DNA of 64,000 nt from Antitrichia curtipendula (lineage: Eukaryota; Streptophyta; Bryopsida; Hypnales; Leucodontaceae). The DNA lies in the NCBI GenBank assembly GCA_951230915.1, contig OX579637.1:28024001-28088000 (forward strand). The letters run 5' to 3'. A model generated the notes under the pieces. The model did not search any database. It was not told where the DNA came from and saw nothing but the letters and a program-made list of their open reading frames with translations. This document shows positions 25,454 through 55,299 of this stretch, piece after piece (positions within the stretch are counted from its first letter, which is position 1; every line of letters starts with the position of its first letter). The position numbers were made by a program, and so were the translations under genes.

Positions 25454-25534
25454 CTTAACTTGACTCGAGTTAGAATGTTGAACAGCATGCAGGGAACATG
25501 ACAAGATTGCAAGCTTAACTCGACTGGAGTTAAT
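25454..25534. promoter_or_regulatory. Two A-type palindromes in gene A's module-joining intron
   Basis: Sites at 25454-25474 (core CTTG-ACT-CGAG) and 25514-25534 (core CTCG-ACT-GGAG), both with TTAA-type outer arms, lie in the intron that joins the ParB-like and methyltransferase-like modules. One begins 14 bp inside the donor at 25548. Gene B has two palindromes in the matching intron. Confidence 0.6.
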
Positions 25535-25548
25535 GACTAGTAACATAC

Positions 25549-26985
25549 GAGGAAAAGTGACGCATTTGTTGCGTCCACTCTCGTCTTGGGCACAGACTTG
25601 GCCATCTTCCTGAGCTCCATGGGCTCCCTCCGTGGCACAGGGCTTCCCATACTCGTCCACATGAACCGTGAAGCCAGTATGTTTGCCGCCTAGGTTGGCA
25701 TGAAGTTCTGAAAATGGTTCACACGGTTGTAGTATGCAAAAAATTTCCGTATGATACTGTCCTCCCTGTTCCACATGACGAAGCATTCCCACACCTTGTA
25801 CTTGTCCATCTTGTCCTGGAGAAATGAGGTCTATCAGCTAGATTCTCTTGGAGGCCTCCACACAGTGCTGCTCGTTCACCATCCAAAACTTCCTAGCCTT
25901 TATTTCCTCAAACGTTTGCAACTTTTCTTTATATTTTGAAGATAGGCGCAAAGGGTCATTTTCTTGTCAAGGTCAAGAATGTTGATGAGGAAGTTCACCA
26001 TTTTTTTGATGCCCGGGTCTTCCTATTCCCGGATATTTAGATTTTGTGACAGCTTCTCCAGTTGATCGATTGGAATCAGGAATTTCTCCCCAATCTTTGT
26101 GATGTACGAGTTAGTGCAGACCGACCAGTAATCTGCATATGATTTGCATGCCTCCTTGTAGTCTATTTTGTGAACACTTCCGCCAAGATCCTGGAGGATG
26201 TTCACAATCTCTGACGCCATGCTGTTCTCCGGCACTAGAAGGTTCTTGAAAACTGGCTTCTTCCCTCTATTCTTTGGTGCCGTTGGAGGAGTCATCGCGG
26301 GATCCCCCCAACTATACTTCTTTGTTTGCTTGAGTTGCATGTGACTGCGACCAGTCTCAGGAGTTGCTATGGCAAGGGGACCCTGGCTGCCACTATGACT
26401 ACTGTAGACTGTTATCAGAGAAATGGGCTGCATTCTCTGAGCCTTATTCTCGAGGGTGGCCTTCATGTGGTTGAAGTCCTTAATCAAGGCGTTCACCTTA
26501 GATGCTAGCGTCATAGAGGTAAGCGGCCCCCCTCTTTGGGCTTTCCACTGATTTTTCTTTAGGTGCTGCTCGATGTCTTTCTGCAGTTCCTGGTAGTCCG
26601 TGTTGTTAAGGGACTTGTAGTACGTAGACACGGAGAAATGTATTTTCCGGCTGTTCACTACGTACGAGAAGTAGTACTCTTCTTCTTGCTCGGGGTTCAT
26701 GGTTTTGCAGCACACAAATATTAGGCCACCGGGACCGGTGATGACCTCGCGTACAACCTCAATCAATGTCACCGGTAGGTTATTTTCGACCTTCTTGTAC
26801 TTTGTCCTGAATGACAGATTCTTATTCATCGGCACCAGGACAAGAGTCCAGTACTCCACCTCCATCGGGTCCTTCCACTCCCGGAACTCGCCAAGCATGT
26901 CGGCGTCACTGTAGTCGTCTTTGTCTTTGTAAAGGATTTGGAATCTCTTTAAGTAAACCTCGAGACTACTGATCTGGTCCTCCAT
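25549..26985 (-). pseudogene. N-terminal domain and ParB-like module of gene A
   Basis: A 320-codon open frame (26023-26985) has an N-terminal domain (VEYWTLVLVPMNKN, YYFSYVVNSRKIHFSV, LKKNQWKAQRGG) and enters the ParB-like fold at GEKFLIPIDQLEKL. Beyond a TAG at 26023 and a frame change it continues FWMVNEQHCVEASKRI, TAG (25838), then a third frame with IIRKFFAYYNRVNHFQNF, MPT, TAG (25690), AANILASRFMW. The N-E-Q-H motif aligns with gene B (I-N-G-stop-H) and with D-G-N-H of gene D. The TAG at 25838 aligns with Gln in gene B, and the TAG at 25690 aligns with a TAG in gene B at a probable Trp. Confidence 0.65.
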
Positions 26986-27012
26986 GCTTGCAGCGAAACA
27001 ACACCGGAACCG

Positions 27013-27687
27013 TTTAACTCGAGCCGAGTTAAGCTACATGAGGACGTGATACGGTCACTACATGGGGACAATCTTCTTGTATGTTCAATTATTTCTTGTT
27101 CTGTTGTGGTGGTTTATCTCAAACCGAGTTAAACTAGTTAGGACTGTCTGTCGACATCGTCCTCTTCTTCTACATGTCCTATATTCACATTCCGTACTTT
27201 AGCACAAGGAGATTTACGTCCTCACGGCATGTCCCGTTGTTGTTTATCTCGGACCGAGTTAAAAGGTCTGTGTTTCTGGTTCTCTGTAGCCTTTGTCGTG
27301 TTTGTGGTGTATACTTGTCTATTTCTTAATGCGTACTCGTCATGAGTATCCGGACAGAACACTGGGTCGTCTACATTGGGAGGGGTACATTTTAACTCGC
27401 TTCGAGTTGAATATATTTACTAGGACATGTTTTTGTTAGTCGTTTGATTGTGTTGTGTTGTCTTACTTGTTTAATTTGGTTTGAGTTAAGGTTGTTAGTT
27501 AGGAAGCTGTTTCCTTCAGTATTCGTTGGGGTGGTTTCGTGTTTGGTTTTTGTGTGTTCAAGAGTCATTTAATTCGGGTTGAATTAAAATTGGCTCACGT
27601 CTTGACGTATTTTAACTTGACTCGAGTTGAAATGTCAATCCAAGGGCCTCTGATTAAGTTTAAACATACATTGCATCGAGTTAAAAC
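27013..27687. promoter_or_regulatory. A-type palindrome array in gene A's leader intron (8 sites)
   Basis: Seven clear sites and one weak site of the form TTTAACTCG, 3 nt, reverse complement: 27013, 27113, 27243, 27391, 27470, 27568 and 27611, with a half-site near 27671. The site at 27014-27032 has perfect 8-bp arms around AGC. The array ends about 28 bp upstream of gene A's ATG and the acceptor-like GCTGCAAG, so it probably lies in a leader intron. Spacing is irregular (50-150 bp), unlike a satellite, and the sequence between sites is not repeated. Confidence 0.8.
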
Positions 27688-27789
27688 ATATATTGCAAAG
27701 ACCAAGAAAAACATTGTTGTTCAGCTCAATTGTAACCTTGTACTAACAACCAAAGACATGAGATATTTTTTGAATCAAACATCATCTTA

Positions 27790-28080
27790 ATGCAACAAAA
27801 AGCAAGATCCTACAACAACTACAAAAACAAGAACGAAAACAGAATCAGAAACAGAATCCACAAAAACAACAAAAACATAAACGAAAACAACAAGAACAGC
27901 GAGATCTACAACAAGAACAACGACATCTAGAGCAAGATCAATTAGATCTACAACAAAAACTTGAAAGAGAAACAGAAACAACAAAAACATAAACATAAAT
28001 AAAAACAACAAAAACATCAAGATCTGCAATACGAACAACGACATCTACAGCGAGAAATCTGACAGGAAAGACTCCTACTG
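27790..28080. repeat. Purine-rich low-complexity tract
   Basis: A and AAC-rich sequence on the plus strand (ACAACAAAAACA-type words), with AGATCTACAACAA repeated at about 27902 and 27944 and ACGACATCTA repeated near 27921 and 28035. The open Leu/Val/Phe-rich frame on the minus strand is a by-product of the composition. Confidence 0.65.
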
Positions 28081-28640
28081 CATTCAACAAACCCTAGAAA
28101 CCCAAGTGCAAGCCGAATGCAAGCCGAAACTTGAATACAAAGCAGTTGACCTCTACTAAAATTCGAATGCAAACTTGAATGCAAACCCGAATGCAAGCAG
28201 TTGAGAGAAAGTTTGAAATGGAGAAATGCAAAAGATCAAACTCACCAACAAAAGATGATCGTTGCTTGAATTTGCCGCCGCTGCCTCCAAAGCATGCACC
28301 GATGCACACACACACAAAACACGCCCACAAAACAACGCTCAGGAAAACAAGGGTTGCTCCAAAAACGCTGAAGATTGCTTCAAAAAATCGCTCCACCAAT
28401 GCTCAAAAACTACTCCAAGACGCGTCCACGCGGAAGAAAAACAAAACAAGCCCACGGGGAAGCAGAATCGGGGAGAAAATCAACAACAACAATTGGGAAG
28501 AAAATCAAACCACAACGAAGCAAAACCAAAGCAAAACCAAGGAAAACCAAGCGGGAATGAAGCGGAAGAAAATCGGGAGAGATGACCCCTACGCCACGCC
28601 GCCAAGCCCTGGCCCCTAAAACCGTGGTCCTCAAGTCATG
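28081..28640 (-). other. GC-rich leader region of gene A, possible promoter/5' exon
   Basis: GC rises sharply between about 28260 and 28625 (GCCGCCGCTGCC, CGCCACGCCGCCAAGCC) between the palindrome array and the AT-rich spacer. The matching position in element B (55690-56380) is also GC-rich. I infer the promoter and untranslated first exon of gene A, but no TATA box stands out. Confidence 0.35.
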
Positions 28641-29951
28641 GCCCTAAAATTGTGGCCCCATAATCATGGAATTTATTTTTCCTTTCTTTTGATTTGAAAA
28701 AAATTGACGTGGAATCTAACACAAGTGGTTTGTAATGTTCAAAGCATTTTTGAATTCCTTATGAATTTCTAAGTAATTGTACCATAGGAATGTATTTATG
28801 ATTCTAGGCCTTGTAAAACCCATACACATCCAGTTTGAAAATAAATATGACTTGTCTAAAAACAAGCAGTGTAAAATTCAAAAAGCAATACATTCAAGGG
28901 ACCTAAATGTGATCCTTACTAAACTTAAACAAACCCTAAATTTGTTTAACAATTGTGAAAAAAACAATTGGCTTAATTATACTCTTATACTAGTGGTAAT
29001 TCATTTTAGACCACTTACTATCCATTTTAGAGCTCTCTACCTGATTGTTTAAAGAAGATGGTTGCAATAATCTTTAAATGACAAGCTCATAAACTTAGAA
29101 ATCATTTGTTTTGTCACATGCTAAAGTCTTGGAATAAAATCATTTAAAAGCAAAGTTTTAAAATTTTAATTAGAGTTCCTCAATGACTATTTACTATTCC
29201 ACTGTTTCATTCTAGTATATTTGAGGTTCATTCTCAAGAGCCCTTAACATTAAAAAAACAAGAATTACAAAGGATACCCTTGCACAAAATCTTGAAAGCA
29301 AAATCACAATCATTCATTTTCAAAATTGAATTTTTGATACTAAAACTAGAATCCAACAATAATTTTATAAATGTAGAAACTATAAAAGATAATAACCTGG
29401 TTAATTTTATTTAGCTTCAAAGTATTGTAAATAATAGAATTTGGTGTCCTAGAGATTCATGAGCTAACAAAAAGTTTGGAAAAAAATAACATAATAAAAA
29501 TTCCATTATATTCTTTCTTTAACCCTTAAAGGACCAATGAGCCCTCTTTGATGTATGCTAGTTATCATAACCTATGTGGGAAGCTTTTTTTCATGTCATT
29601 CTATAAAATATTACATTCAAAGGTTATATGTTTCTTATTTCAATATCAAAATGGGCAACAAAAAATTTGTTATAAAAAATAGATTAATATTTGTTTTTGG
29701 AGATTGTATAGATGAATACCTACTAAAATACTGTATATTTGAACCATTTAATTCAACACTCACTTGACCCTAAACCTTATTATTTGAATGAGTTCATAAA
29801 AAGATCTCATATTGGATTTATTAAATCACACCTAAAATAATAGCATTTACCTGCTTCAAATATGAATTTTGAATTAATTTTAGATCCTACATAAATACGT
29901 ACATAACCAAAAGATTAAGAACAAAAGTTTTATGTTTTAAATTTTAAGTGT

Positions 29952-29982
<31 letters not shown>

Positions 29983-32900
29983 GTATGTATATATATCAAA
30001 TACATGTTTATTTATATCAAGTATATACTTGCTTTAAATTTAATTTTTGAATTAATTTTAGACCCTAAATCTACAAATAACAAAGAAATAAGACATTAAA
30101 AATGAAAGCTTTATCTTTTTAAATGGTTATATATATATAGAACAATATCATGTACTTTTATTAAATATGAGATTTGAATTAATTTTAGATCCTACTTCTA
30201 TATAGAACTAAGAGATTACAAATAAAAAATAAAAAAATTAATGTACCTTTTGCATATAGTAAATGTTTTATATACATATGTAGTTGTTTATAAATTCATT
30301 ATATGTTTTCAATTTTTTTTGGTCTTGGAGGGTGTCAATTCGAAGAAAGAGTCATCCAGGTCACGTTTAAATTTGAATGTGTAATCCTTTAACGACAGAC
30401 TTATAACCTTGGAAATCATTTGTTTTGTCATCGCCTCGAGCGAATTCTTGGATTACAATAATTTAAAAGCAATGTTTGCAAGTCAAACCACTACAGATGG
30501 TTTTTCCTTTTCACACGAAATTGAGAAGATGAATAGTTACATTTTTGTCCTACCAGGGGACATTTTGTCATTGATCAGCAATAAAAAGGTACTCCACGAC
30601 ATGTATGGCATAAGCCACTAATCCTTCACAAGAGTAGAAGTCCATATAGGGCCTCCCATTTTGTGGAGCACTTCTGAAGAATTCTAAGGATTAAAAAATA
30701 CCACAACAAAAGACTACCGAATTTCCTTCTAAGGAAATTTTTTATTTGATTGTATGGCAACAAAAATGGTGCCACTTGAAGTATTACAATTGTTTTCCTT
30801 ACAGTCGTATAGACTTATATTTAAAATTATGAAATGAATCTACCAAAATTGAAGTATGAAGTGAAATTGAAAGAAAGGTTATTTTGTCAATTTTCTTTCC
30901 GTCGAGACAACTAAAAGCCATATTATGTAATAACTGAGCAATATGCGGAATAAAAACTTTGTGCCTTGTCTAAAGTGTTTGGGTTTAAGGTTGTGCAATT
31001 CTGAAGACCATTGACAAGGACTACAAAGTAAAGACACATAAATTAATTTATAAATGTCTACAATTAAATAAATAAAAAATAAGATCTATAAAATTTCTTT
31101 TAAAAAACGTTTAATAGAATTCCGATACATCAACATACAAAAATCCATCCTGAACTTCTTCCAATAAAGCCAATTTTAGTTAAATAATGAACGAACTATG
31201 TATTTCAGCCTTTCTAAGGTTTGTACATATTATTTATTAAAGAAATGGGTATCTCTTGATTTGCAAAATTAATAGTGAATTCGTACTTTCAATCAAGCAT
31301 TCCAAATTCTAATATTCAAATTTATTCATTTTTGGTGAATAAATTACTAAAGTTATTTTTTAACATACTACATTTTTGAAATCAATTGATAATGATTTTT
31401 TTTAATTCAATTGCATAGATATGTAGACATATAGATTTCAAACTACTCTGAACCTTCTAAAGTAATAAAGAAATGAGCAATAAAGTGTTGTGCCTTTGGA
31501 AAGTCTCATATGCCCCAACTATGAAGAAATGAATAACTCTATGTAAGAACTTTAAATTTTTTCAAGATATCTCTAAATCTCTAAATTTCTCAAAATAATT
31601 GTATCATCATGCTCAAGTGTTATGAAATCAGGTACCATGAAAAGGACTAATAGAAAAATCAAATTACAACTAAAGATATCTTTTAAAATTCCAAATTCAG
31701 TTATTATCATGCCAACATCAACATTTTTGTAGAGAAAATTGTGAAACTTTTCTTAAGACACTCATCAGAGGGAAGCTATGCATATGGTTGTTTTGTACTA
31801 TGTGTGTAAGCACTATAATTAAGAAGATTCTTCACCAATGTTTGTCAATGAATTATCATATATTATCATGAATTTTAAACTAAAAATATCAGCAGAAACA
31901 AGAATATAGTCTCTTGAAATTGAAATTTGTTGTGCTCATTAATTTGCATTTACATAGGGCTGCTATGATAATTCTGTTGAACAAAACAAAACAATTCAAA
32001 TACAACTTGTACAAACACATATGAAGAAGTCATTCCATGATGGCAAGTGTTTACGAAATGTATGTCTTCATTAAATTTTAAACACTTGTGTTCCAATTTT
32101 AGAACCTTATGCATGTAATGCACAAGATATTTGCATTCAAAGGGTTTAGGTTAAAATAGTTTTATTGCAACTTGCTTGATTAAAGTTTTTGCCTTTGGAT
32201 ATTTTGAATTTCAAATTTCTGTACTTTTGATGTTGGTTTTCAGAAATTTTAGTTGAGTAGTCTAGTTTAGAATCTAAGAAAAGAATTTCAAGGAAGAACA
32301 CTAAATTATTTGGATTCAAGGTATTAGAAGATTGTTAAGTACAAATACATTTAAAATTCAAGAAAAAACTAAAACATCCATAACTCTAAGATGGAATTGA
32401 AATACAAGAATCTCAACGGTCAAATGGTTCTACCAAGCAAAACTAACCCTATGCATGAATTTGTTTTTGTAATTGTAAAAAAAACATTGACAAAAGAATC
32501 ATATAAGTTATTTTTTGAAAAAGATTCCTATATTGTGCTGCCTTCCAACCTCCACTTTGGGCTCATTGTGCTAAGTATAACCTTTGGTCCATGTCATTGA
32601 TTCAAATAAAAAGTATATATCCATGAAGCATTGGACATCTTTAAAAAGGTTAAAAAAAAATTCAATACAAATTCACTTGAAACAATAGTAATGTATTTGG
32701 ACTCAACTTATTCTTCACAGGCCGGAACAAAAAATCCTTTTGGAGGTGAAGACCCAGGGCCATTTCTTACTTCACCTTAAAACCCATGTGTTGAAAGTTT
32801 TGCAATTAATGTACAAACCAAGCTCAAACAAGTACTACAACTTGTGAGTATGTTGAAGACTTCAATTTCAAAACCAAATTAAATTGTATGCAAATGTGTT

Positions 32901-35399
32901 TTGTTTTGAGAATGTCATGTATTGTTGAGCATGGGCCATTTGCGTATTACTTTCTTATTTTTTTGAAAAACCCATAACAACAATAATTGAACTATTGTAC
33001 AAACAAAGCACCAAAAAAATTGGTAATATAGAAGTGAATTACTTATGGTTTTAGAAGTTCATTCTCTACTTAAAAGCCATGTGTATAAAAAAAACTTTAC
33101 ATGCTCACTTGTTTCTCCAACTAGTAATTGTGGGGACATGTCTTACAAAAATTATTAAAATTTTGAGAGCAAAATACTAAGTGAAAATCCTCTTCATATC
33201 CAAATAAGTCAGTATGTCAAACTTTGTGGCATAAGGGAGTAACCTTCATTTACATTCAATCACAGATTAAATTGATTTAGTACATTCAAATGAATGGTTC
33301 ATTTGATGGCCTTCACATGAACTTAAATCAATCAATATTTGTCCTTCATGTGAGCATGCGTTAATCAAGTTCAATTATTCATGATTAATTATGAGAGGTA
33401 CAAATTCTTACAAATGACTAATGTATCCCATGCTATCATGAATTCACGTAAGAGTATAGAAAATAAGTTGTTGCAACTCAAAGAGTTCTGTAGCAGCCAA
33501 TAAATATTTAATTCACAATACCTACACTTATGAATGATCAAAGTAGGGTAATGAAAATCCTAATTTGGTAAATAATTAGGCATGCTACACGTAAGGAAAA
33601 AATTCTTTTGCAAAAAACCTTTTCACTATACAATATATACATGTACATTATAACAATGTGTTTCATAAAAAAATTGAATTCAATTCAATAATAAAACAGA
33701 CTAAGCGACTAAATCATATGACAAGGATGAATACAATAAAATTCTACAGAAGTGAGTACTTTTACGAATTGTTTTTTAGAGAGCACAAAATAGTTATTAT
33801 ATAATTTTTAAAGTTCCAATGATTTAGAGAATACACACAACATGCAATGTATTCTTCAAAGAGAATTAAAATAAACAAAGCATTTACAGTGAGTATCCTA
33901 AAGCTGGAAAAAAATTGGATTTTCATCTCCACATCTTTAGTTCTTTGTATTTGTTGTAAATTTGTCTTGGAAGTGCATGGTGAGCATTTATAAAACGTTC
34001 ATCCATAAAAATAGTTTGTAGAAGTTTTTTCTTTTTCATGTATACATATTTCCTTAGAAGAAAAATTCAAGGGCAAAACAAATAGATCATGCTTAAATAT
34101 GAACATCATATTTTCAATATGCTCCTCAGTGAATAGACTTCTGCTACAACCCCCACACCTTCATTAACTAAATTTTTCTAGCTTTGCATCTTTCTATCTA
34201 AAAACATTTGCACTATTGTTTTTGGATTTTATATTAATCTTCTATGTTGAAGAAATGATCTAGTGAAAAAAAATCTATCACAAAATTTAATTTCCACTCA
34301 TGAAAAAAATACTAAGTATAAGTACACTCAAGATTGATCCCTCAATTAAATAATGAACAAATCTAACATGGAATTGAAACATGGTAATTTTAATGGTAAG
34401 GTTGTTCTAGCAAACAAAATTAACCTTCCCTAACCTTTTTTCATTAATTTTTAAAAATTTAAATTAAAAAATGGATTTTAGAAAGTATATCTTGAAGAAG
34501 ATGCTTCAATATTGTTAAAATTGACATTATCCATAACATCCTCATCTGTAGTCCAAAAATAATGAATAAAAGGTTCTTATGTAAGCAAAAAGATGATCTT
34601 TGAGATTAAAATATAAAAAAACAAAAACTCAAGTTCATTTATTCTATATTTTGGGATGCCCGTGGTTTTTTTTTTTAGACTCATTGTCATTGTGGCATAC
34701 CTTTGCTTCCATGTCTCCTACTGAAATAAGAACTATCTTTCTAGAAAATGAATCGCATTTCCTATCTTCAAAAGCAGTTTTACAAAACCATGCAAAAATT
34801 CGAGATTATATGAGCATACCCAAAATCTAAAGAGCCCCCTTTAACTAGGAGCTTTTTGGACTTTAGAGATTAATGGACCCTAAACTTCTTGAGAATTAGT
34901 TGTATAGTCCACCTTAGACATGCCAAATGCAAGAATGGGCACACATGTATTCAAGTTTTGATGGAAATATGTCCATTTGGGCATTTTCAAACTAAATTTC
35001 TTTGAACAAACCTGACCTGTGTGGACCACCCCTAAATCCTAAAATCCTAAATACCGTGCAAATGTTAAGGAATTCTCAAGTCTCTATGAATTTGAAAGTT
35101 CAAAAACTACTCCCCCCTTGTGGCAATGGCACGTTGCACACCATTCATTTTTTGGAAAACACTTTTGGAAATAGAACCCTAAACCCTAAACTCCAAACCC
35201 TAAATAATGTTACATATTGTAATTTTTCCTTTGTAACTAAAAGTTTGGAAATGGTTACCAACTTTTTAGTTAAAAATTTGAAATGTTATATCACTAATGG
35301 GGATTTATAAATCCTCTTAGTGTGTATTTAAGGAATAGTATACTATAATTTTGGTTTTGTTAATTTATGGTACACTAGTGGTTTTTATTAACACTGTGT
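28641..35399. other. AT-rich spacer without genes
   Basis: Nearly 7 kb of strongly AT-rich DNA with no open frame above about 100 codons and no recognisable protein, RNA gene or transposon end. It holds internal duplication (the stretch around AAATCATTTGTTTTGTCA at about 29100 and 30412) and telomere-like AAACCCTAAA words near 35178-35205. ACCTGACCTGTGTGGACCACC near 35010 recurs near 37189. It separates the two divergent genes of element A. The matching spacer in element B is 56.4-62.3 kb. Confidence 0.55.
29952..29997. repeat. TA/TATG microsatellite
   Basis: An uninterrupted (TA)n run of about 24 bp followed by TATG-interrupted TA repeats. A simple sequence repeat within the AT-rich spacer. 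Confidence 0.9.
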
Positions 35400-37166: not shown

Positions 37167-37169
37167 CGG

Positions 37170-43638: not shown

Positions 43639-44146
43639 GGCTCTCAAAACAACTTGGAGTAGATCCTAGACGCATAGATCCCTCGTCCTCTTAGACAGTT
43701 CTTTCACACTACTGCTCCGTCTTTAAGAAACAGGCAGTCTAACCTCCGTTTTAATCGGAACCGGAATCTAAAACTCACACTCCTCCTTGCTCCAATTGCT
43801 ACCCTTTTTTGAGAACAATCACACATAGGAGAAAACAACAGGATGGAAGAGATGGAGTGAGAAAGCTGTTGCCAAATCCTTTCTTTTTTGTTTCCGCATC
43901 CGGCTCTCCTACCGTTGGATATGACCGGTTTTTGGAAATAGTTTCCATTTAACGGCTCTCCTATTTACCCGGTAGTGATTGTTAGCTCCCGATTTCTACT
44001 TCTAATATCGGCTTGGCAATACCCAAATACTTGAGAATCTTGTTTAGGATTTCTCAGTGGTTTTCGGTTTCCGGTCTAAGATGGAAATAATAAAGATCCG
44101 TCTTAATCATTTTATCTCATTAAAGAGATGCTATGGTTGCTAAAAT

Positions 44147-44212
44147 CTAAAAAATCTAAAAATCTAATAATCTAAAAATCTAATAAATTATCTAATTCTA
44201 CCATACAAACAA
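44147..44212. repeat. AAATCT simple repeat
   Basis: Tandem variants of AAATCTA (AAAATCTAAAAAATCTAAAA...) near the right end of the copy-2 element. Simple low-complexity sequence. Confidence 0.8.
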
Positions 44213-45571: not shown

Positions 45572-46166
45572 CCAAGTACGGGATTTTATGAAGAGACTTA
45601 ATAGTATTTGAAGATAAGTTTTATAGTTTGTGTCTATGATAATGGTATTGTATAGCCATAGACAATTTTATATTATTCTATAGCGCGTGTGTAGGGTAGA
45701 TGGTGTGGATTGTATTATGATTGGATCTTATAGATATGTATTAGAACTACTTCTATATTTTTGGTGTAGTCACTTGTGCAGCAAGTGCATTTAATATTAA
45801 TAATACATAATATATAATATATAATATATAATATTAATAATACATAATATATAATATATAATATTAATAATACATAATATATAATATATAATATTAATAA
45901 TACATAATATATAATATATAATATTAATAATACATAATATATGTATGATTATATTATATTTGTGATATTTTTTATGTTGGCGTCATTTTATTATTAATTC
46001 ACTTTCAGTGTAATTCATGGTATTTTAAAAATACAATGCGAGTTCAAAAAATTTGATAGTGGGTAAGACCACTTTTTGTTTTTTGAACATGTAAAGCACT
46101 TGTCACAATTTTTGATAGGGGGCCAGTTGGTTGTTATAACTTTCCTGCCTTCAAAGTTCACTGAGC
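45572..46166. repeat. AT tandem repeat downstream of the DUF7869-like gene
   Basis: At about 45795-45945 a roughly 37-45 bp unit made of ATTAATAATACATAATAT and ATATAATAT words is repeated four to five times. The rest of this stretch is AT-rich and without genes. It may include the right end of element A, but no end signature was found. Confidence 0.7.
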
Positions 46167-46286
46167 AACACCAAGCCATGTATATCTCATAGCTACTCGA
46201 ACGAATTCATTGGGAATCGAACTTGGACCACCTGAGTGAGATACGTAGCCTCTTACAACCAACTAATCAACTCATGACTTGGTGTT
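46167..46286 (-). repeat. tRNA-like sequence enclosed by 14-bp inverted repeats
   Basis: AACACCAAGCCATG (46167-46180) and CATGACTTGGTGTT (46273-46286) are inverted repeats with one mismatch. On the minus strand the inside resembles tRNA internal promoters: an A-box-like TTAGTTGGTTG and a B-box-like AAGTTCGATTCCC (46211-46223). It could be a tRNA-derived SINE head, a tRNA relic or a small foldback element. I cannot fold a standard cloverleaf, so I do not call a functional tRNA. Confidence 0.5.
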
Positions 46287-46559
46287 TAGTAAGGACCATT
46301 CATCACATTTATATGGAAAATGACTATTACCACCTTAATCAAGAATGTATCCGGGACACCCAAATTACGTCATTTTAATGGAAATTGTAACTAACAACTA
46401 GAAAACCAAGCTTCCACAACTTCAATGTACCAAAACTTTAATTCAATTTTTGAAGTTTAGAAATGTATAATATTATTTTGGGAGGTCTTCAATCTCCCAA
46501 AATAATAAATATGATGTTACATCCGGAAGTGAATAATGGACAATAAGTTAGGATCGCTT

Positions 46560-46860
46560 AGTTCACTAGTCCCCAGATTCTGCCTTAGGAACTGGAATGG
46601 GTTAGGTCTGTTGCTGTAGTAAGGTGGGGATTGTAGGGATTTCTTGTGTGACCTGCTAGTCCGGATTAGTTTTCGGAATTGCTATGAAGGAGTACTTACA
46701 TCCGATTGTGTTGGCCTTTTTGTTATTTTACTTAAAGTGAATCTTCAGTCACTTTAAACTTTAGAAGGGTAGGACTTAATGCATCCTTCCTTAATTCAAT
46801 GAGCGCATCCCTTTGATATAGAGGTTAAACTTCCTGTTAAGTTATCCTACAAGGCCTTAT
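46560..46860 (+). mobile_element. Fragment of the gag-like element family (3' end)
   Basis: GTCTGTTGCTGTAGTAAGG, then TTGTGTGACCTGCTAGTCCGG, then GAAGGGTAGGACTTA match the corresponding 3' noncoding parts of copy 2 (reverse complement of about 41130-41340) and copy 3 (about 24970-25030). No coding part remains. This is a fourth trace of the family. Confidence 0.65.
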
Positions 46861-47424
46861 TCGTTTATCTGAGACGAAGTGGTCATTTTGAGACTTTGAA
46901 AAATAAGTGTGAAGCACTATTAAAATAAAAGTTTTTGAACCCAATGATAAATGCCTTTGCAATGCAATCTAAAAGACTTGAACATGTCAGCCCCTGTAAT
47001 AATTCAAACATGGAAGTCTACATGCAACAATACGGAAAAAAACTTGAGTCGTAATTTCACATGATGTGAAGCAAAATCAGTTCCACAAAATACTTTCAAG
47101 TGATTTTAAATACTGTATGTTTGATTTACTCCAAACGTTGGTTGCCGAAAGAAACGGCAACTCATACACTTGATGATTTCCATATTTACTGAAGTATGAA
47201 ACTATATGATTTCCTAGACTTTGTGTAGAGACTTTCTGTACAGTAGAGAGCACTCCCGTACTCGAACAAAATAGTACCCCGTTATCTACCATGCTATTAA
47301 TAGTAATATGGAAACAAAATCCAAGCGCTTCGGAAACCTGTATTTAAGCCTAGGCATCACTATTGCCTGTACAATTACTCTTGACCGCTTCTATAGCTTT
47401 TAGCTTTGCTAGGCCTCTAAATAT
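46861..47424. other. No gene recognised
   Basis: AT-rich, with a 71-codon minus-strand frame that has no recognisable features. No repeat or element end was identified. Confidence 0.4.
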
Positions 47425-47940
47425 ATCCTCGCGTCAAGAATGATGTTGCTGTCGAATTTCAGGTTTGCAGGCACCGCGTAACCCAAGGCTTTGAGATCCA
47501 CCATCTTTGCGCTCTAGATTGCGGACATATTGAGGGCGCCCGTAAGTACATAGAGATCTGGTCCCGCGAGGCGGCAGCGATGGCAGCGACGCATGAACAT
47601 TGGCTATGTACGGTTTAGGAGTTCCGGTAGATTTGGAGTCCGCAGATCGTCGATTTTCTTTAGAAATGCGTTGACGAAAGAGAGTGTCGGCGGACGAAGC
47701 TCGTCTATGTTGTGTATACTTCGGTGCCAGAGGCACCCTTTTGTGGAGCGGATGAAAGGGTTTAGGGTCCGCCAACATCAATGACAATGTCCTGGCTTGA
47801 CCCTCCATCAGCGACGTTGAAGGAATAGTATCCTCGAGGCAAGGATATCCTGGAGCCTCGTGCGTTGCCAGGTCAAATTTTCGATTGGTACCTCCATCCG
47901 TCCGATGCCCCGAGGAGAATGAACCTGTTCGCCTCGACGA
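47425..47940. promoter_or_regulatory. B-type palindromes at the left side of element B
   Basis: ATCCTCGAGGCAAGGAT at 47831-47847, a half-conserved site at 47924-47940 (TTCGCCTCGACGAT), and a degenerate one at 47425-47441 (ATCCTCGCGTCAAGAAT). The 47924 site begins 7 bp inside a donor-like GTGAGT (47947, minus strand), the same donor-near placement as in genes A and B. Confidence 0.55.
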
Positions 47941-48294
47941 TACTCACTTGAGTGGCAAAGAGGAGCTGATGGGAGTCCTCGGAGGTCCACGGCTAGGGGG
48001 ACTGTCGACAACGCCGTCCTCGATGTTTCCCTTCGAGTAGTCTATGGCAGCGGATGCCGCATCTGCTGTAAAACGCAACATGTATGGCTTGGAACGCGGA
48101 GCCGTATCGCAGCTCCCGTTCTCGGAATTCGATCTCGGCGACACCATTTTTAGAGATCTAGAAAAGAGGCTCTTTGTTAGCCTTGTCATTCTCTGCCTTT
48201 TCTTCGGTTTAAACAGTTGAACCTCTTCGAACTCCAGCAACTGTCCAATCCACGAAGCCACCCACATTACTCCCCCGTGGAAGAACAAATTCAT
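47434..48294 (-). CDS. Unrecognised small gene, probably two exons
   Basis: A frame at 47948-48294 (FKPKKRQRMTRLTKSLFSRS, then RSKPYMLRFTADAASAAIDY and PPSRGPPRTP) ends at a donor-like GTGAGT (47947). After an intron with B-type palindromes a second frame (47434-47808) reads HKRVPLAPKYTQHRRASSAD and KPYIANVHASLPSLPPRG. Both are basic and Ser/Pro-rich without a recognisable fold. Composition and the lack of stops over 115 and 124 codons suggest coding, but this is weak. It lies directly downstream of the FCP1-like relic on the same strand. Confidence 0.35.
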
Positions 48295-48479
48295 GCAGAA
48301 AGTGGATTTAAATCAAAAGAGTAGTACACGCATGCACAACGACTCCCAAATCACAAATCCAGAAATACGTGTTAAAAACGATGCAAATATATTATTCATA
48401 TAAAAAAGTAGTGTCATTTACAACAAAAATACATTACAAGAGAGCATTCCCAAATGTTAAGCGAATCTAGGTGGGGAGT

Positions 48480-49391
48480 CTACTTCCTACACTTGGGAGG
48501 CTCTATGACTACTCCTATGCCCGAAAGTTCGTAGCGGCACTCCATGACCTTCGCAGACACTTTTATTCCGTCGACGATATCTTTGACATTCCAGTCATCG
48601 GCGTCCAGCGGATTGCAGCCAATCCGGTTTTCCGCGACGTACTCCCGTAAATGTCCGGGCGGGCAATGCGAATCTAGGCATCGCAGCCAAGGCAGAAGTA
48701 CCTTCAAGAGAACGTTGTCTCGATGCTTACTGTGGGTCCACGTTCCTAGGAAAATGGCATTCCCATTCTCATTGCAGATACTCTTGATGGGAGAGTCGTC
48801 AATGAGAATGGTATTGTCGGCACTAAAAGACGTGCTACCACTCGGGTTCTTGAAGAGGGCCTCCGAAAGATCTTTTAGACAGAGCATTTGATGACCCTTA
48901 TAAAAGAACTTCCCCAGAGCGACCTCTATTTTGGTGCAGTGATCCTGACTCAAGATATCGTAAGGCGGTCTGCACCCACTGAACAAGTGTCCCGCAATGC
49001 CTTCGGCATTGCACTTGATCATAGTGGTCCAGACGACAATCCTATCTGCAATTTCAGAAACCTCCCGCAGGAATTCCCCTACATCCTATCGAGCGAATAC
49101 CGCCTTGGGCTCGACTATTGTGGGATTCCTGTGGCAGAGAACTTTCTCTTCGACTCGGTATGGTTTGAATTTGTCCCCATACGACTGCATGGCGCTATGA
49201 CAAAGCACGCCGTTCAGGTCGAAGACAATGATTAGCCACTTCCTCCGCGGCGAAGGAAGTGGCGGGGGCAGATTCCATGGCACAATCTCTCTTCCGCCCT
49301 CCGATTCTGCTTGATCTATGTAAGACAACAAAGAATTGGAGTTACTTGGTGAAATGCAGAAGTGGGAGAGCCAGTAAGCGGACTTTTGCAT
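48480..49391 (-). pseudogene. FCP1-like (NLI-interacting factor-type) HAD phosphatase relic
   Basis: A coding stretch of about 300 codons, with the exon likely starting after ACATAG near 49316. HAD motif I appears as IIVFDLNGVLCH, then TAG at 49086 inside the conserved segment AR-stop-DVGEFLREVSEIADR, then VVWTTM (motif II region) and DNTILIDDSPIKSICNENG (motif III region, D-D-S-P), ending at 48480. FCP1/SCP-type phosphatases act on phosphoserine in, for example, the RNA polymerase II tail; they use D-x-D in motif I. Here the second Asp is Asn, as in several plant FCP1-like proteins, so catalysis is uncertain. It follows gene B in the same direction. Confidence 0.7.
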
Positions 49392-49798
49392 TGAATTCCA
49401 TTAAGCAAATGCGGTTCCCCGTTAGGGAACGCTTTCACAGCCAACGGACGGTGCACGCTTTCAAATTTGACAAACTGAGCAACCAAAACATGCACAGTCG
49501 CATTCAATTAGACCCAAGAAGCAATCCATGTGTAAAAATTTGCATATTTTATTTACATAGATAACATGATACACTTAGAAGAAATCGAACTATAGCCGAC
49601 CCAACCGAGCACTCATGCGTGAAGACAATGCTACACTAGACTATACAATAGACGCCACAGATGGGCACGTTGTTCGCGCCAACAAATCAAGGAGTGGCCA
49701 CGCCATCCTGTCAAGCAGCATGCATAAAATGAGATTCAACACTTACTTTAGAAACGTGATGCCAGTAGAGTATGACGACCACCAATAATCTCTCTGAC
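49392..49798. other. No gene recognised between gene B and the FCP1-like relic
   Basis: About 400 bp. May contain upstream exon or intron sequence of the FCP1-like gene, but nothing specific could be identified. Confidence 0.4.
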
Positions 49799-51397
49799 TC
49801 AATTGAATCCATAAGGGTCAGACGGATGTACCTGTGTTGATTCAGGCACTTGTGGATTCCCGTCAACCCCCGCTGCCATCGTCGTGCGCCCTGCTTCTCT
49901 CCCCTCTACGACATTGCGACGAATTTCATCGTCGCTAGCCTCGTAATCCACCTTCTCTTCGTCCACGGACATTGGAGAAGGCATCGACTCGAAGGACGTC
50001 CCACAGGCTGGTACGTCTGCAGCATTGGCCGCTGCGCCAATTGCCTCCCCAACATCATGGGCATCCTTGAGTCGAGGATGAGGCTCCACCTTGTCTCTCT
50101 TCAAGCCCGGCTTCGAGACGTCCATGGCAACATATGTTTTCACCTCGAAGGCTCCGTCCTGTGGAGAAGGGACACTTGGTAGTTGGGATGCAGGGGTGCA
50201 CGCCACCACATCGACATGCACAAGCGGAACAACGTGAACCTCCATATCCTCGCCTCAACAATAAGGGAGCCCTGACATTAGTACTTGCACCTGCTTAACG
50301 ACAGGTGCTGCGGTTGACAGCACAGGGACCTGCGGTGCCGGATGTTGGGAAGAATCCAGAGTATGCGCTGGCGGCTGGGTCGGTTGCATTTGCGCAATAA
50401 GTTGCTTCATTTGAGTCTGCAGCTCCAGGTATTGTGCCTGGGACTCTTCCTTGATTCTTTGAATCTCCTCTTTGGTCTTCGTCCTGCTCTCCACTACCTC
50501 CTTGAGTTCCTTTTTAAGGTCCTCCTTCTCCTTTCTTCGGAGCAATCTCCTCTGCCGTTTCTCCACGTCTTTCTGCCAGAAGTCCTTCTCAATCTTCACA
50601 ACTGATCCAGATGGTAGAACGAGAGGCTTCATCTCTTTCACCCGGGGGATGCCTTCGTCGTCTTTGGAGTCGTCGTCTGAAGAATGGGGACAATCAATGT
50701 CATCGTCGTCACTGAGGACTACAAGGCCTTCTTCGGCGGACCTTGGAATTTGAGGTACCTGAGCTGGTTGGGAACTCTCGATGACAACATCCTCAGGTCC
50801 GACATCGAAAGGTCCAACATTGGAAGGTCCTACTTCGGAAGGTCCATGTCCAGAAACATCGTTCATTGGCACATCTTTGTCCAAATGGTTTTCCTGAACC
50901 CTCAATTCTTCTTTGCGCTGCCTCTCGAATTCTGTGTCCGTTTCGTAGTCTCCCTCATTTTCTCCAACAGGTGTGTCTAGGGGAACAAAAGCGCCAGTTG
51001 CAGCTGACTCAGACTCAGCCTCGCCAACAGCCGCGAGTGGTGGAACATTTCCGACGGAAGAGACCATCCATGTATGAATTTGAAGTGTGTTAGTTCCAAA
51101 CTCATCGATGCCCTCCAGTCTAGGATCAGAAGATACATGAGAACCCACCGTCTGTCCCTCCCGACTTGCAAACATTGGGACAGCTACCGGTGATTCCAAT
51201 ACCATTGGTGGAGATGGTGGTGAGTCAAAATGCACCACGACAACTTCACGGCCTTGTGGTTTTTCATACAACAACAAGTACGGTGAATTCGAGAACATAA
51301 AATCTCTCTTACCAATCTTGCTTGCCAAATACAAAATTTGCTGATACGGCTTCACGTCAGTCTTGTCCACAAGTCCGTAGAAAAACGCATCGAACAT
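49799..51397 (-). CDS. C-terminal region of gene B: acidic, coiled-coil
   Basis: The first residues (MFDAFFYGLVDKT) continue the methyltransferase-like fold, matching IFDALIAPIHRK of gene D. A long disordered acidic/Ser/Pro segment follows, with a repeated Val-Gly-Pro pattern (GPSEVGPSNVGPFDVGPEDV). Then come GLVVLSDDDDID (a textbook-like SUMO-interaction motif), SSDDDSKDDEG and a Lys/Arg/Glu-rich coiled coil (KRQRRLLRRKEKEDLKKELK). TGA at 50255 lies inside a B-type palindrome and could be a decayed CGA. The same frame then continues to 49799 (VDEEKVDYEASDDE, ending DPYGFN). Neither SUMO binding nor oligomerisation is shown. Confidence 0.55.
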
Positions 51398-51472
51398 TTG
51401 AAATCAAATGATAACACATGTTCAGTTTAATCTTTTGTATTCTTCTAAAGGAAATTTCTGCAAACAACCACT

Positions 51473-51489
51473 ATCCTCGCCTCGACGAT
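51473..51489. promoter_or_regulatory. B-type palindrome in a second intron of gene B
   Basis: ATCCTCGCCTCGACGAT in the intron starting at the donor at 51557, which splits the AdoMet-binding strand from the following helix. A further copy, ATCCTCGCCTCAACAAT, lies at 50246-50262 in the coding tail. Confidence 0.65.
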
Positions 51490-51557
51490 AGTAGCAAAAC
51501 AAATTATCAAAACATACAATAGTATGTTTCGGAAACGAAATGTATAATACAACTTAC

Positions 51558-52885
51558 CTTGGCTGCAAGCATAAATTTCGCTCCGGAGAAGACTTCTAAG
51601 ACATTCTCTTCCGGTCTCGCAAAGGCTTGGAGAATATCCAGGTAGAACTCTATACAAAGCTCTGTTGGCTCTATTCTCCACTTCGCCTCAGTATTTCTTG
51701 CGGGATCTTGATAGTATACAAAGTTGGCAGGCGTTGAGTACATATCCTTCATCAACGGTTGAGATGAAGTTGCAAACTCGTTATCTTTCTTGAAGAGAAA
51801 GAGCAATGGCACATCAGGAGCAATCCCCCGGTTCGTGACATTGTTAAGCATTTCTGCTTTACACGGTACGTACGTGGACACGACGTACTCATATTGATGG
51901 AGCTTAAGAGCAACGAAAGCTGTTGCAACTTTTAGTTCCTCTTTGTTATCAAGGAGGAACAGCCAGACATTGGGCTCGAACATTCTCGGCTCCATCTTCT
52001 GATACAGCAGGTATAGAAAGGGGTCGATGCCACTAGCGACAGTCGTAGCAGTTGCTCTCGACGTCTCTCTGATGTCAAGAACTGCAAGATTCACTTGTCA
52101 AGGCTGATACTTGTAATGTGAGCTCGTCACGAACGCCTTCTGAGAAATGTCCAGCCCTCTGATTTGAACCTCTCCTACAGGTTACGGAAGTTGGTTTTCA
52201 ACTTCATGAACCGGGTGAACATGTACAAAGCCTCCGGATGGAGCTTCTCTAAATCCTTAGCACAACATGTAAAAGCATCATTCCTTAGACGCTTCACAAA
52301 GTACGCGGGTATCGGGAGGGTGATCAACATATCCCACGTGGCCGATGTAAACCTGTGTCTCGCCTTCCACGACCTCCATGTCTCGTCTATCATGTTCTCA
52401 TTAACGTTGTGGAACACCAGAGAGGGCTTGACGGCCATCAGATCTTGCAGAATGATCTTCTTCTTCCTCCTCTCCACCCAGTCCTGTTGTGGAATATTGT
52501 CGGGCACTAGAATTTTAGTCTTCGAGAGCGAAACCTTTGGATGGAACGCCTTCCGGTTAGGCGTTTCACCGAGCAAGTGCTGTGCGAAGTCCTTGTAGTC
52601 AAGGTCTGTGAACCAGCCACACTGTTTGAAAAACTCTCTGTTCAGCGACATTGATTTTATTTTAAATCCTTTCATGTCCTTGAGAAGAGTCAAGGTCACA
52701 GGATCAATGATTTCGCCTGCCGCGTGCTTTGTAAGAAATCTTTCCCAGTAAGCCCACAAAGGATCTGGCAGCGTGATGATCTGGATCTCATTTTTCAGAT
52801 CCGCGGTTCCACCTACTTGGGCACCATCTTTGTCCGGATTAATATTTTGAAAACGCTCAACGACTGCGTCAGTGAAACTTTGCAA
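51558..52885 (-). pseudogene. Middle and methyltransferase-like exons of gene B
   Basis: The 236-codon frame (52175-52885) has EIQIITLPDPLWAYWERF, GEIIDPVTLTLLKDMKG and PNRKAFHPKVSLSKT, and aligns with gene A. The next frame has VNLAVLDIRE (motif-IV place, no PP dipeptide), PNVWLFLLDNKEELKVAT, KWRIEPTELCIEFYLDIL and RPEENVLEVFSGAKFMLAAK. The last has the same place as the AdoMet-binding strand of gene D, but the second glycine position is changed (SGAKF for STGSS). A donor AAG|GTAAGT follows. TAG at 52175, TGA at 52098 and a frame change separate the two frames. Confidence 0.62.
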
Positions 52886-52938
52886 TCAAAACAAAAAGGT
52901 ATTAGCAATGACACGACAAACTCACTTGTGCGCGAGGC

Positions 52939-53064
52939 ATCCTCGACTCGACGATACAGAACTACTCATATTCAAGCATGACAATTCAGCTTCAATTTGC
53001 AGAGGACTTCCACAGGCCGAACCGATATAAAACTTGACGACAACATCATCGTCGACTCGACGAT
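52939..53064. promoter_or_regulatory. Two B-type palindromes in gene B's module-joining intron
   Basis: ATCGTCGACTCGACGAT at 53048-53064 (a perfect 17-bp palindrome apart from its centre, 22 bp inside the donor) and ATCCTCGACTCGACGAT at 52939-52955. The intron between the ParB-like and methyltransferase-like modules runs from 53086 to about 52887. Confidence 0.72.
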
Positions 53065-53085
53065 ACAAGGAAACCGTACTGCATA

Positions 53086-54526
53086 CCTTATAGTTTTCAA
53101 GACTGTAGACAGCTTTATTCAAACGTCTTGCATTCTCTCCTATCTTCTCTGCTGGGCGTTTGTATGTTACCCAGATGTTGCGGCAGGCAATGATCTGGTT
53201 GCCCTACGTTGGTTGGGCATGGTTGAGATGATTCGTGCAGTTGTAGAATTTTGATATATTCCGGAGTTTCGTATGGTCTAGGGACTAGACAATCAGGGCA
53301 TTCCAGTGCTTGAGTTCGTTTTTTTGCTCCTCTCCACAACCGAATACTTGAAGCTCTTTTGAAGCCGTAATACTGTGCTACCCGTTGATAATCATGAAGT
53401 TGTTGTCCTTAATGTCATCCCATTTTTGTGGTTTCTTCATGAGCAACTGATTCTTCTTGTTGACCGGTGTCAGACAAACAATTTGTTGGTGCTTGATGTC
53501 GATAAGCTGGACTAGCTCGTTCTTCACTGCCTCAGTGATGTCTTTTTGCAGTGTCCGAATAACGAACTGGTCACTTGCAATAAGACATTTGTCGATGTTC
53601 ACGGGGATCGGATTTTGGTTAAACAGAAAGCAGTCTTGATGCTCGGCCCAGAACTTAGACTGAATCGTTGCGAATCTCTCAAAATCTGGGATGTCCACTG
53701 CAGATGCCCCAACTCCTTCTAAAAGACTTGTCAAAGCTAATCCTGAGCTTCCTGCTCCAATAGCTAGACCTGTCAGACTTTTCTTTCTTTTACGGCTTGA
53801 CTCGGTTCCAACAGATTGCGAAGCAGTTCTTTTCTGAGGCTCCGATGGCGTCTGACCAGGCCTTTTTGCTCTTGTTTCAGACGCTTTCTGTGTTGGGTAT
53901 TCATTTCCAGGAGGCACGGACGCTGAACTTCTCTGTTGCGCTGCTGTTCGACCAACGTTGGGCTGCGTCTCAACATTCTCCAGTGCGTAGCGGTCAAGTG
54001 TCTGAAATATCAGGCGTAACCTGGATGCATTGGACCTGGCAGTGCTGTCCTTCCAAGGAACATAGCCCATGTTGTCGAACTCTTCATTCAAGGACTCCAT
54101 CTACGAACCTTCAAGAAATGTCATGAGGTTGGCCAAGTCAAATTTCCCGTGACCAAAGTCGACGTTTATAACTATAGAGTGACAATGGCTTCTATTTTTT
54201 CCATTGTCATCCACTTCATGGAGGCCAATAACCACGTAGTTGCTTTGGTGATCTTCGATGACCGTGACCTTCTCCTTTAAGTTCCATGTCATGTAGTTTG
54301 TTTTACCCTGGATTCTATATCTTAGGTAAACGTAGTTCTTCCACCGATTTACTCCAAACGTCCAAGTCTGGATGTGCTCTTTGAATTCCAAAAGCGTTCC
54401 GAATGTGTCTTCCATTTCACCAATAAATGGTTCATCGTTTAACGAATTCACGAAGGACTGAAGATGGTGTTGTGTTTGGGAGTAGTCGTAGTCGTCGGCC
54501 TTCTCCATTCCTTCCTTATCTGTCAA
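53086..54526 (-). pseudogene. N-terminal domain and ParB-like module of gene B
   Basis: An N-terminal domain (EHIQTWTFGVNRWKNYVYL, NYVVIGLHEVDDNG, HSIVINVDFGHGKFDL) is followed, past TAG 54101, by a disordered basic region (SSRKRKKS). The ParB-like fold follows: NPIPVNIDKCLIASDQF, LIDIKHQQIVCLTPV, NNFMIING, TAG 53378, HSITASKELQVF, TAG 53285, SLDHTKLRNISKFYNCTNHL, TAG 53204, GNQIIACRNIWVTYKRP, ending at the donor GTATGC. The I-N-G-(Q)-H signature and the order of blocks match genes A and D. The two later TAGs fall where Trp is expected from gene A and family memory. Confidence 0.65.
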
Positions 54527-54597
54527 AAGAGATGCACTTGTTTAGTTGAGAAATTTCTTCTATTTATTATAGACTATTTTGTTCCTTTGGTGACGGG

Positions 54598-55287
54598 ATC
54601 GTCGACTCGAGGATATAGAGTCTATTTACGCGGGGTACAATTTTCTCTCATCTATATTCGGTAATCACATTGTGTTATCTCACGATTGAGAGCAGTAATT
54701 CATTATGGATACTCTTTCAATGGAGATTCTATTGTAATACTTTTTTGAGTAGTTATTTTTCTATTTAGCATGAGGTTATTTTTGCTAGTCTTGTTTGTCT
54801 CATGGGTTTCCTGTTTCTGTTTATTTAGGTGACTCATTGTCTTAAGAACTGTTTGCATTTGGCTAGGGGACAATTGACAAGGCATTTCATTTCTTCTGGT
54901 GAGTGCTTATCCTCAAGTCGAGGATCGTTTTTGTTACTATCCTCGAGTCGAGGATGGATCTTTGATTCTATTCTATATTCTCAAGGTGATATCTGCGTCA
55001 GGGACTACGTTTTATTTTACTTGTTTTCTTGAACTATCGTCGAGTCAAGGATGGGTTGGTGTTTTTTGTACATTATTTCCCGGAAATGAAGTGCTATATA
55101 TACTTTGAAATGTTTTCATCTAAGGGGTCTAGTTCTAGAGACAACATCCTCGACTCGAGGATGTCCTCATAGTGTTGTTTTTTATTGGTATATCCTCGCC
55201 TCGAGGATATCGTCTAAGTTAGACGATACATCCTCGTGGCGACTGTAGGAAGCGTCAAGGGAGAATGTCTATCCTCGAGGCGAGGAT
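54598..55287. promoter_or_regulatory. B-type palindrome array in gene B's leader intron (8 or more sites)
   Basis: 17-bp sites at 54598, 54909, 54939, 55036, 55146 (ATCCTCGACTCGAGGAT, perfect arms), 55192, 55230 (weak) and 55271. A variant 19-bp palindrome, ATCGTCTAAGTTAGACGAT, lies at 55209-55227. The array spans 690 bp and begins about 70 bp before gene B's first main exon, matching the 675-bp, 8-site array of gene A in size and place. The core is CTCG, 3 nt, CGAG in both, but the arms are ATC/GAT here. Confidence 0.82.
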
Positions 55288-55299
55288 AGTAGGTTTTGG

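Follow-up and report, generated by a model that had tools for sequence, protein, structure and literature searches.

The closest described systems to the one considered here are the VANC proteins of VANDAL transposons in Arabidopsis, the ParB-like proteins of algal transposons, the ParB-parS and Noc-NBS pairs and TnpA of Spm/En. VANC motifs, which vary from one VANC family to another, occupy introns and upstream regions (PMC5735166), and parS (TGTTTCACGTGAAACA) and NBS (TATTTCCCGGGAAATA) are spacerless sites that differ at two half-site positions (PMC7383237). ParB-like accessory proteins in transposons are already known; Sola1-1_Ec32 of Ectocarpus is a 21.5 kb transposon with a ParB-like protein on the strand opposite the transposase (PMC12477816). 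A study of Asgard archaea mentions a viral ParB-like CTPase (PMC8813620), and a Physcomitrium transposon paper names other families (PMC7466625). The literature searched, with most subscription papers outside the search, yielded no cognate palindromes for transposon ParB-like proteins, no moss version and no paper on 'DUF7869'. The subject of this report is a 64,000-nucleotide stretch of the moss Antitrichia curtipendula (contig OX579637.1; C5:28024001-28088000 in the numbering used here), referred to as the window. It contains a pair of related giant DNA transposons, B and the remnant A, each with its own family of short palindromes and its own ParB-like protein, X, apparently spliced to a second product, Y. 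The palindromes are read here, tentatively and with belief and doubt nearly in balance, as a self-specific parS-like system in which X-Y protects or activates its own element.

Two palindrome families with one core

The palindromes of elements A and B have the core CTCG-NNN-CGAG in common. Allowing up to three mismatches, the A-type palindrome (TTTAACTCGNNNCGAGTTAAA) occurs at 14 sites in the window, where shuffles predict 0.05, and the B-type palindrome (ATCCTCGNNNCGAGGAT) at 16, where they predict 1.38. With up to four mismatches allowed, A-type sites number 15, so that the counts of about 15 and 16 in the sequence-only reading that preceded this analysis are reproduced. Fifteen of the 16 B-type sites fall within 47425-55287; the remaining one, at 63969, is the first of a 12-site cluster that reaches 65337, beyond the window. 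The sites, all found by motif scan, are as follows.

25454-25474 and 25514-25534, plus strand: a pair of A-type sites inside the intron that separates X from Y, as defined in copies c1 and c4
27013..27631, plus strand: A-type palindromes upstream of X, at 27013, 27113, 27243, 27391, 27568 and 27611, plus 27470 with 4 mismatches
38100..39212, plus strand: A-type palindromes upstream of the transposase, at 38100, 38184, 38268, 38374, 38439 and 39192
47425..53064, plus strand: B-type palindromes at 47425, 47830, 50063, 50246, 51473, 52939 and 53048
54598..55287, plus strand: B-type palindromes upstream of X, at 54598, 54909, 54939, 55036, 55146, 55192, 55230 and 55271
63969..63985, plus strand: B-type palindrome that opens the cluster preceding the B transposase, with 11 more at 64023-65337, outside the window

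In the 400 Mb genome that was searched, the exact A pattern (CTCGNNNCGAGTTAAA) gave 381 forward and 382 reverse matches, against 2 and 8 for a reversed-pattern control, and the exact B pattern (ATCCTCGNNNCGAGGAT) gave 466 and 466 against 0 and 0; each palindrome scores on both strands in these counts, and places are known only for the first matches listed, on contig C1. The existence of two families with a common core and element-specific arms is thus borne out by shuffles within the window and by the control genome-wide.

The sites in the window are worn. Only seven exact 11-bp cores are present (three A, four B), and perfect sequences account for none of the 14 A-type 21-mers and four of the 16 B-type 17-mers; the first 20.9 kb of the window contain no exact core, where only 0.08 would be expected. 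Among the 15 A-type sites, 12 of 60 bases at CpG positions are off consensus, compared with 1 of 60 at the corresponding sites in copy c1. Because 11 of these 12 are C>T or G>A, the transitions expected of methylated C, the window copy of element A looks silenced and decaying, which suggests past methylation.

The arms of the sites were compared at exact cores, taken from 51 distinct sites of type A, 30 of type B and 15 of a third type, C, the last from two contigs described below (L034 and L035). At the three positions adjoining the core, A half-sites read TAA in 68 of 102 cases and CAA in 19, B half-sites ATC in 54 of 60, and C half-sites CAG in 26 of 30, while a T at position -4 is found in 96% (A), 87% (B) and 100% (C). 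The arms therefore reduce mainly to a three-base block between an outer T and the core, both of which are shared; the sequence constant across families beside the exchangeable block is CTCGNNNCGAG. The earlier proposal of element-specific arms stands, with the refinement that the difference lies mainly in this block and not in the whole arm.

No mixing of arms had been noticed in the window, and the same was found in nine elements, where none of 88 exact cores combines an intact A arm with an intact B arm. Two A arms flank 48 of these cores, two B arms 13 and two C arms 13; in the remaining 14, one or both arms fit no rule of their own family. Two sites had an arm scored A under a loose rule: the B site at 65145, through its broken second arm, and one C site in L034, through an arm one base off C. 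No A-type sites (4 mismatches) were found in element B or in B-clade b1, and no B-type sites (2 mismatches) in the loci c1-c5.

The description of the sites as single and irregularly spaced fits the window and fails elsewhere, where one B subfamily contains 42-bp tandem arrays and A-type short elements contain 72-bp tandem arrays of sites. Promoter sites of this kind in one B-type subfamily lie largely on a 21-bp lattice (gaps of 21, 42, 63 and 84, with one gap of 205), at the following places.

L032:7656-7971: B-subfamily lattice sites
L059:1112-1653: B-subfamily lattice sites
L060:783-1098: B-subfamily lattice sites

The lattice, equal to two helical turns, apparently arose by growth of the 42-bp tandem unit and could favour cooperative binding on one face of the DNA.

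Site type and protein clade

Whether the block changes together with the protein was examined in a tree of 28 X sequences, made up of 22 of 32 related proteins (P numbers) and six locus sequences. Short or redundant proteins (P0125, P0142, P0143 and P0146-P0152) and three pieces from the window were left out; 14 rows were unlabelled, and c1 and c3 are near-copies. The labels A (six rows), B (six) and C (two) each require one change, with support of 100/99, 100/100 and 100/100, and all three together require two changes, the minimum possible, which none of 200 label shuffles matched. With P0121 unlabelled the result was the same and 1 of 200 shuffles was as low. Group C, being only two rows, was equalled by 24 of 500 shuffles. 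The window proteins, too broken for the tree, were judged by pairwise identity: the A piece of X is 52% identical to A-clade c4, and the middle piece of B is 35% identical to B-clade b1 against 24% to c4. For comparison, identity between A and B in X is about 21% (c4 against b1).

The loci c1-c5 and L056-L061 were picked by site type, all from contig C1, and only L034, L035 and the P proteins were reached through the protein. In five of six further loci of the same genome, picked in that way, the block matches the X clade. Two of them, bearing A sites, encode X of the A clade (L058, 51% identical to c4; L061, 53% to the window piece), and three bearing B sites encode B-clade X; the sixth, L057, has no X gene within the part fetched.

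A scan of bacterial genome contigs led by protein alignment A4, and blind to palindromes, matched 40 stretches, of which two encode a relative: L034 (CADCWO010000269.1) and L035 (CADCWO010000243.1). Both are filed under a Synechococcales metagenome assembly and, judging from split genes and gene order, are likely to be misplaced moss DNA, that is, assembly contamination. They carry a third X clade (L034 X is 30% identical to c4 and 23% to b1) together with the same core and a third block, CAG. A palindrome scan of these contigs that was blind to the arms returned ATTCAG-CTCG-NNN-CGAG-CTGAAT among the longest palindromes, beside a few unrelated ones, and the C-type sites are placed before X, in introns and after D, the gene following Y.

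Intron read-through in the P proteins offered another view of site type. B-type peptides were matched without mismatch in P0131, P0132 and P0133 and with one in P0130 and P0135; A-type peptides were matched with one mismatch in P0126 and P0128, P0126 fitting C equally (1 mismatch). P0121, labelled A in the first tree, fits C with no mismatch and A with one, and P0144, which fits B through a less telling peptide, was left unlabelled. B-like peptides at one mismatch also occur inside the clade-A proteins P0126 and P0128 and, outside the tail, in P0130 and P0131. Since proteins shuffled in 20 rounds of 32 gave 44 B matches (with 3 A and 5 C), a single B match at one mismatch is weak. Taken together, the tree, the five of six further loci and the two protein-found contigs with a third clade and a third arm indicate that arm type follows protein clade, as the sequence-only reading expected of co-evolving pairs.

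The elements and the placement of their sites

Both elements have the same gene order, with X, Y, D and a NIF-type phosphatase on one strand and the transposase on the opposite strand at the far end. Copies c1 and c4 have donor and acceptor sequences and a palindrome-bearing intron between X and Y, and from these the two appear to form a single spliced gene; the alignment shows conservation of Y across the three clades. The extents first described for both elements had to be revised. Element A, of a family of about 22 kb, has no left end in the window and is interrupted at ~22017-25429, 35205-37173 and 40725-44290, at least three insertions. Element B begins 333 bp after the end of A and passes the window edge; its target duplication is CTAC and its inverted repeat AAGGCCTTATT (repeats and flanks by eye, with the extension L031). 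Copy c1 of element A (C1:2265251-2287354) is ~22.1 kb with an imperfect inverted repeat of ~36 bp. Three long copies on contig C1 align along their length, gaps included (blastn), and 4-bp target duplications were recognised by eye in c1 (AATA), c2 (CCAT) and c3 (ACTT). The features of the two elements, with the open reading frames (ORFs) on which they rest, are as follows.

20938..46518, no strand: remnant of element A that lacks its left part (by blastn against the complete copy c1; the right terminal repeat stops at 46518)
20938..22016, minus strand: element A Y exon region, intron-joined to X in other copies (blastn against c1)
25535..26022, minus strand: element A X, degraded C-terminal (ParB-fold) part (blastn to c1 and c2; NGQH motif in relatives)
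26023..26985, minus strand: element A X, N-terminal part of ParB-like protein (ORF with stop codon; homologues)
39405..45568, plus strand: element A transposase region, broken by the 40725-44290 insertion (ORFs, blastn; DUF7869 PF25273 in the c1 copy, L026)
46487..46518, minus strand: element A right terminal inverted repeat, reading AACATCATATTTATTATTTTGGGAG inwards
46851..64000, no strand: in-window part of element B (whole element 46851 to ~69107, 22.3 kb)
46851..46875, plus strand: element B left terminal inverted repeat, AAGGCCTTATTCGTTTATCTGAGAC
48483..49085, minus strand: element B NIF/FCP1-like phosphatase domain (PF03031, E 2.9e-9)
50258..51403, minus strand: element B D, coiled/disordered (ORF; position in the gene order shared with A and b1)
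51510..52885, minus strand: element B Y, two pieces, frame broken (52178-52885 is 31% identical to Y of A; alignment)
53381..54526, minus strand: element B X, ParB-like (in two pieces, 53381-54100 and 54104-54526; the NGQH motif, which follows just downstream, is broken by a stop)

Among the 120 matches listed for the element A transposase, the best named are a Ceratodon protein (69% identity) and a Physcomitrium protein (64%). The 793-residue transposase ORF in c1 matches only DUF7869 in Pfam (E 1.2e-43); a 115-residue piece has a match to Transposase_23 TNP1/EN/SPM at E 0.13 that is below threshold (12.5 bits, cut-off 21). The element B transposase copy in L031 was recognised by eye from reading frames. 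The NIF/FCP1-like domain, of CTD phosphatase type, travels with both transposons (PF03031 at E 2.4e-17 in element A, L025:1719-2675, and 2.9e-9 in B), and, if it acted on RNA polymerase II, such an enzyme would be of interest as an aid to escape from silencing.

Of the 19 sites of c1, some precede X, others occupy the X-Y and Y-D introns, and the rest follow D or precede the transposase; the middle of the copy (9.2-18.6 kb) has none, and the outermost sites are ~3.0 kb and ~3.7 kb from the element ends. Over c1, c4, b1, L034 and L035, 63 of 67 sites fall outside coding intervals drawn by hand from ORFs; the intervals as drawn give 62, to which the c1 site at 8480 was added, since an overlong interval had taken it in although it precedes the first ATG (8452) of the X frame. 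All four coding sites belong to b1, where the D frame contains three and another reading frame one. The three D-frame sites, of B type (L033:2763-3006; b1 12763-13006), translate to YPRGEDN-like peptides, so that conservation at two levels is possible.

Between c1 and c2, differences occur at 8 of 152 core positions (5.3%) and 16 of 184 arm positions (8.7%), compared with 18 of 57 free-centre positions (31.6%) and 446 of 1884 flank positions (23.7%), a comparison biased toward conserved core and arms since sites were picked by motif in both copies.

Solitary sites, again picked by type on contig C1, commonly lie in short elements. A gene-less short element with matching ends was present at 14 of 15 A loci and 8 of 16 B loci; these non-autonomous elements, of 253-436 bp, consist of terminal repeats plus one to three palindromes of the matching type. 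Six of the first seven A loci are elements of 290-436 bp with A ends and 4-bp duplications (by eye), and the seventh (L018) adjoins an X gene (L061). L027, among the first four B loci, is an element of 255 bp that has B ends and the duplication AAGG; at the other three there are many B sites and no B element ends were found. Around 20 further solitary sites, a search blind to the known ends found an inverted repeat with a 4-bp duplication at 8 of 8 A sites (ends AACA) and at 7 of 12 B sites (ends AAGG), and a looser centre raised this to 16 of 20, the sixteenth by search alone. None of 100 shuffled loci gave a paired end, and no paired ends of the other family were found around solitary sites. 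At the B-site locus L028 there is a lone, partnerless A-like end of 16 bases (1 mismatch, at 1807). Because short elements retain their ends plus matching palindromes, the palindrome is among the few sequences kept by gene-less hitch-hiking elements.

Elsewhere in the window, the ORFs at 12992-14323, 22609-23085 and 42755-43567 share a stretch like DGYA-..VPILYPE(R/K)P..(I/V)T(I/V)-ANTIFGAL. By eye, and together with repeats at 10998-12261 and 40720-41770, they look like one retroelement family with two copies inserted in element A. Positions 1-2112 hold an array of units of ~57-58 bp, with 23 copies in one register family and one block inverted.

Competing explanations and known systems

X is predicted to have a fold of the ParB CTPase-domain type, its 13 best VIA-align rows being ParB, Noc, KorB or PadC. 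Palindromes that may be its sites lie near the X gene, as sites do in the ParB/Noc family. Under the favoured explanation, each palindrome family would be the cognate operator or parS-like loading site of the X protein of the same transposon. X-Y would read CTCG-NNN-CGAG plus the flanking three-base block (mainly TAA, ATC or CAG) in promoters, in introns of element genes and in the short non-autonomous derivatives. It would load at these sites, perhaps spread along the DNA like bacterial ParB, and so hold the DNA of its family in a state accessible to expression and mobilisation in the face of host silencing; a block that changes with the protein would free each family from the proteins of its relatives. 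We infer X-Y as the binder, as well as its use of a nucleoside triphosphate, its spreading and the anti-silencing outcome. A more specific form, in which self-recognition is by a ParB-type nucleotide-gated clamp that loads at element palindromes, slides and excludes the silencing machinery, families parting by a swap of three bases and of the protein interface, is doubtful.

Several observations weigh against the favoured explanation. The claim that each element encodes a ParB-like protein holds for the predicted fold and not for sequence models: Pfam ParB models match none of the 28 members at E up to 1, and ParB-like PHROG matches are weak (E 0.019 for one member, 0.042 for two) and not the top PHROG matches. 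Foldseek gave no match at E ≤0.001 (best 1.2e-3), with target TM-scores of 0.32-0.45 in the first 18 rows. The CTP (cytidine triphosphate)-binding motifs of ParB are GERRxRA and ENxQR; X reads NGQHxxxA where GERRxRA is expected, invariant in nine rows of alignment A3 as judged by eye, and its use of CTP is doubtful for that reason. No DNA-binding domain was identified in the element proteins, and Y has no Pfam match above cut-off, nor do X and D. A single base separates the A variant CAA from the block CAG of C, so that the distinction between A and C is less sharp than that between A and B. Transposase, terminal repeats and other element genes co-segregate with site type too; since every element gene does so, linkage alone does not make the ParB-like protein the reader, and the binder could equally be Y, D or the transposase. 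Finally, sites kept in gene-less short elements fit a role in transposition equally well.

Such a role is the strongest competitor, though an unlikely one: X-Y on the palindromes would be a transposition cofactor that joins the element ends or recruits transposase, as TnpA does in Spm/En. The elements of 253-436 bp, reduced to terminal repeats and one to three matching palindromes, fit it, and Spm transposition needs TnpA and subterminal repeats that vary by family (PMC2613891). The outermost sites of c1, several kilobases from the ends, speak against it, as do sites in promoters and introns that are not by the terminal repeats. Plain autoregulation, with X-Y a KorB-like repressor or activator of the two transcription units of the element, would account for the densest site clusters lying directly upstream of X and of the transposase. 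Promoter control needs no sites in introns or in gene-less short elements, however, and this explanation appears improbable. Less probable again is a reader other than X, namely the N-terminus of the transposase, Y or D, the ParB-like domain doing something else. Gene linkage within the element leaves the clade correlation unable to separate the proteins, and Y is conserved in all three clades; yet reading palindromes of this sort is a known activity of the ParB family, whose members the fold comparison places ahead of other proteins that use the fold. That the palindromes are functionless passengers, copied along with transposons in which sites recur and copies share ancestry, is very improbable given core and arms conserved while centre and flanks diverge (subject to the ascertainment bias noted above) and the same core in three clades from two host sources despite ~21% A-B identity in X.

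If the self-specific parS-like system is real, it provides a natural series of three protein-site pairs within one transposon lineage, with the core shared and mainly a three-base block different. How selfish elements tell self from near-kin, and how protein and site shift specificity together, would become testable; ParB-type biology would extend from bacteria and algal transposons to a land plant for which candidate sites are already available, and the pairs may serve as orthogonal DNA-marking pairs.

Among known systems, Spm/En TnpA is alike in being an element-encoded DNA-binding protein with family-specific repeats kept by non-autonomous derivatives (PMC2613891). The moss sites, in contrast, are not subterminal in the full element, and the transposase is of DUF7869 type. 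Unlike CACTA (EnSpm) transposons, the moss elements end in AACA or AAGG, not CACTA, and have 4-bp, not 3-bp, duplications. The Sola superfamily makes a 4-bp target duplication, as do the moss elements. Sola1-1_Ec32 and the moss elements both have the ParB-like protein opposite to the transposase, whereas the algal ParB-like transposons carry a fused DNA methyltransferase and the moss elements a NIF phosphatase instead; the available text of that account mentions no cognate DNA site for Sola1-1_Ec32 (PMC12477816). No Pfam match to a methyltransferase appeared in the 18 moss ORFs scanned, from which small exons may escape.

The ParB-parS and Noc-NBS pairs are alike in that related ParB-fold proteins read related palindromes differing at few positions (PMC7383237). 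Unlike parS and NBS, the moss palindromes contain three unconstrained central bases, and their types diverge mainly at three neighbouring positions. No ParA was seen in the moss elements, no search aimed at it having been made. By analogy, the ParB fold and the palindromes together resemble parS loading.

VANDALs are Mutator-like transposons, unlike the moss elements with their DUF7869 transposase and 4-bp target duplication. The named VANC motifs, of 8-9 bases, also differ from the moss palindromes, and those of VANC21 are arrayed in one orientation (PMC5735166). The likenesses are an element-encoded, family-specific protein with short repeated motifs upstream and in introns (PMC5735166; PMC10398659), and a motif that differs together with the protein between related families and grows in tandem (PMC5735166). 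In description, with sites in promoters and introns, a motif and protein that change together and family-specific hitch-hikers, the moss elements would find their closest resemblance in VANC anti-silencing.

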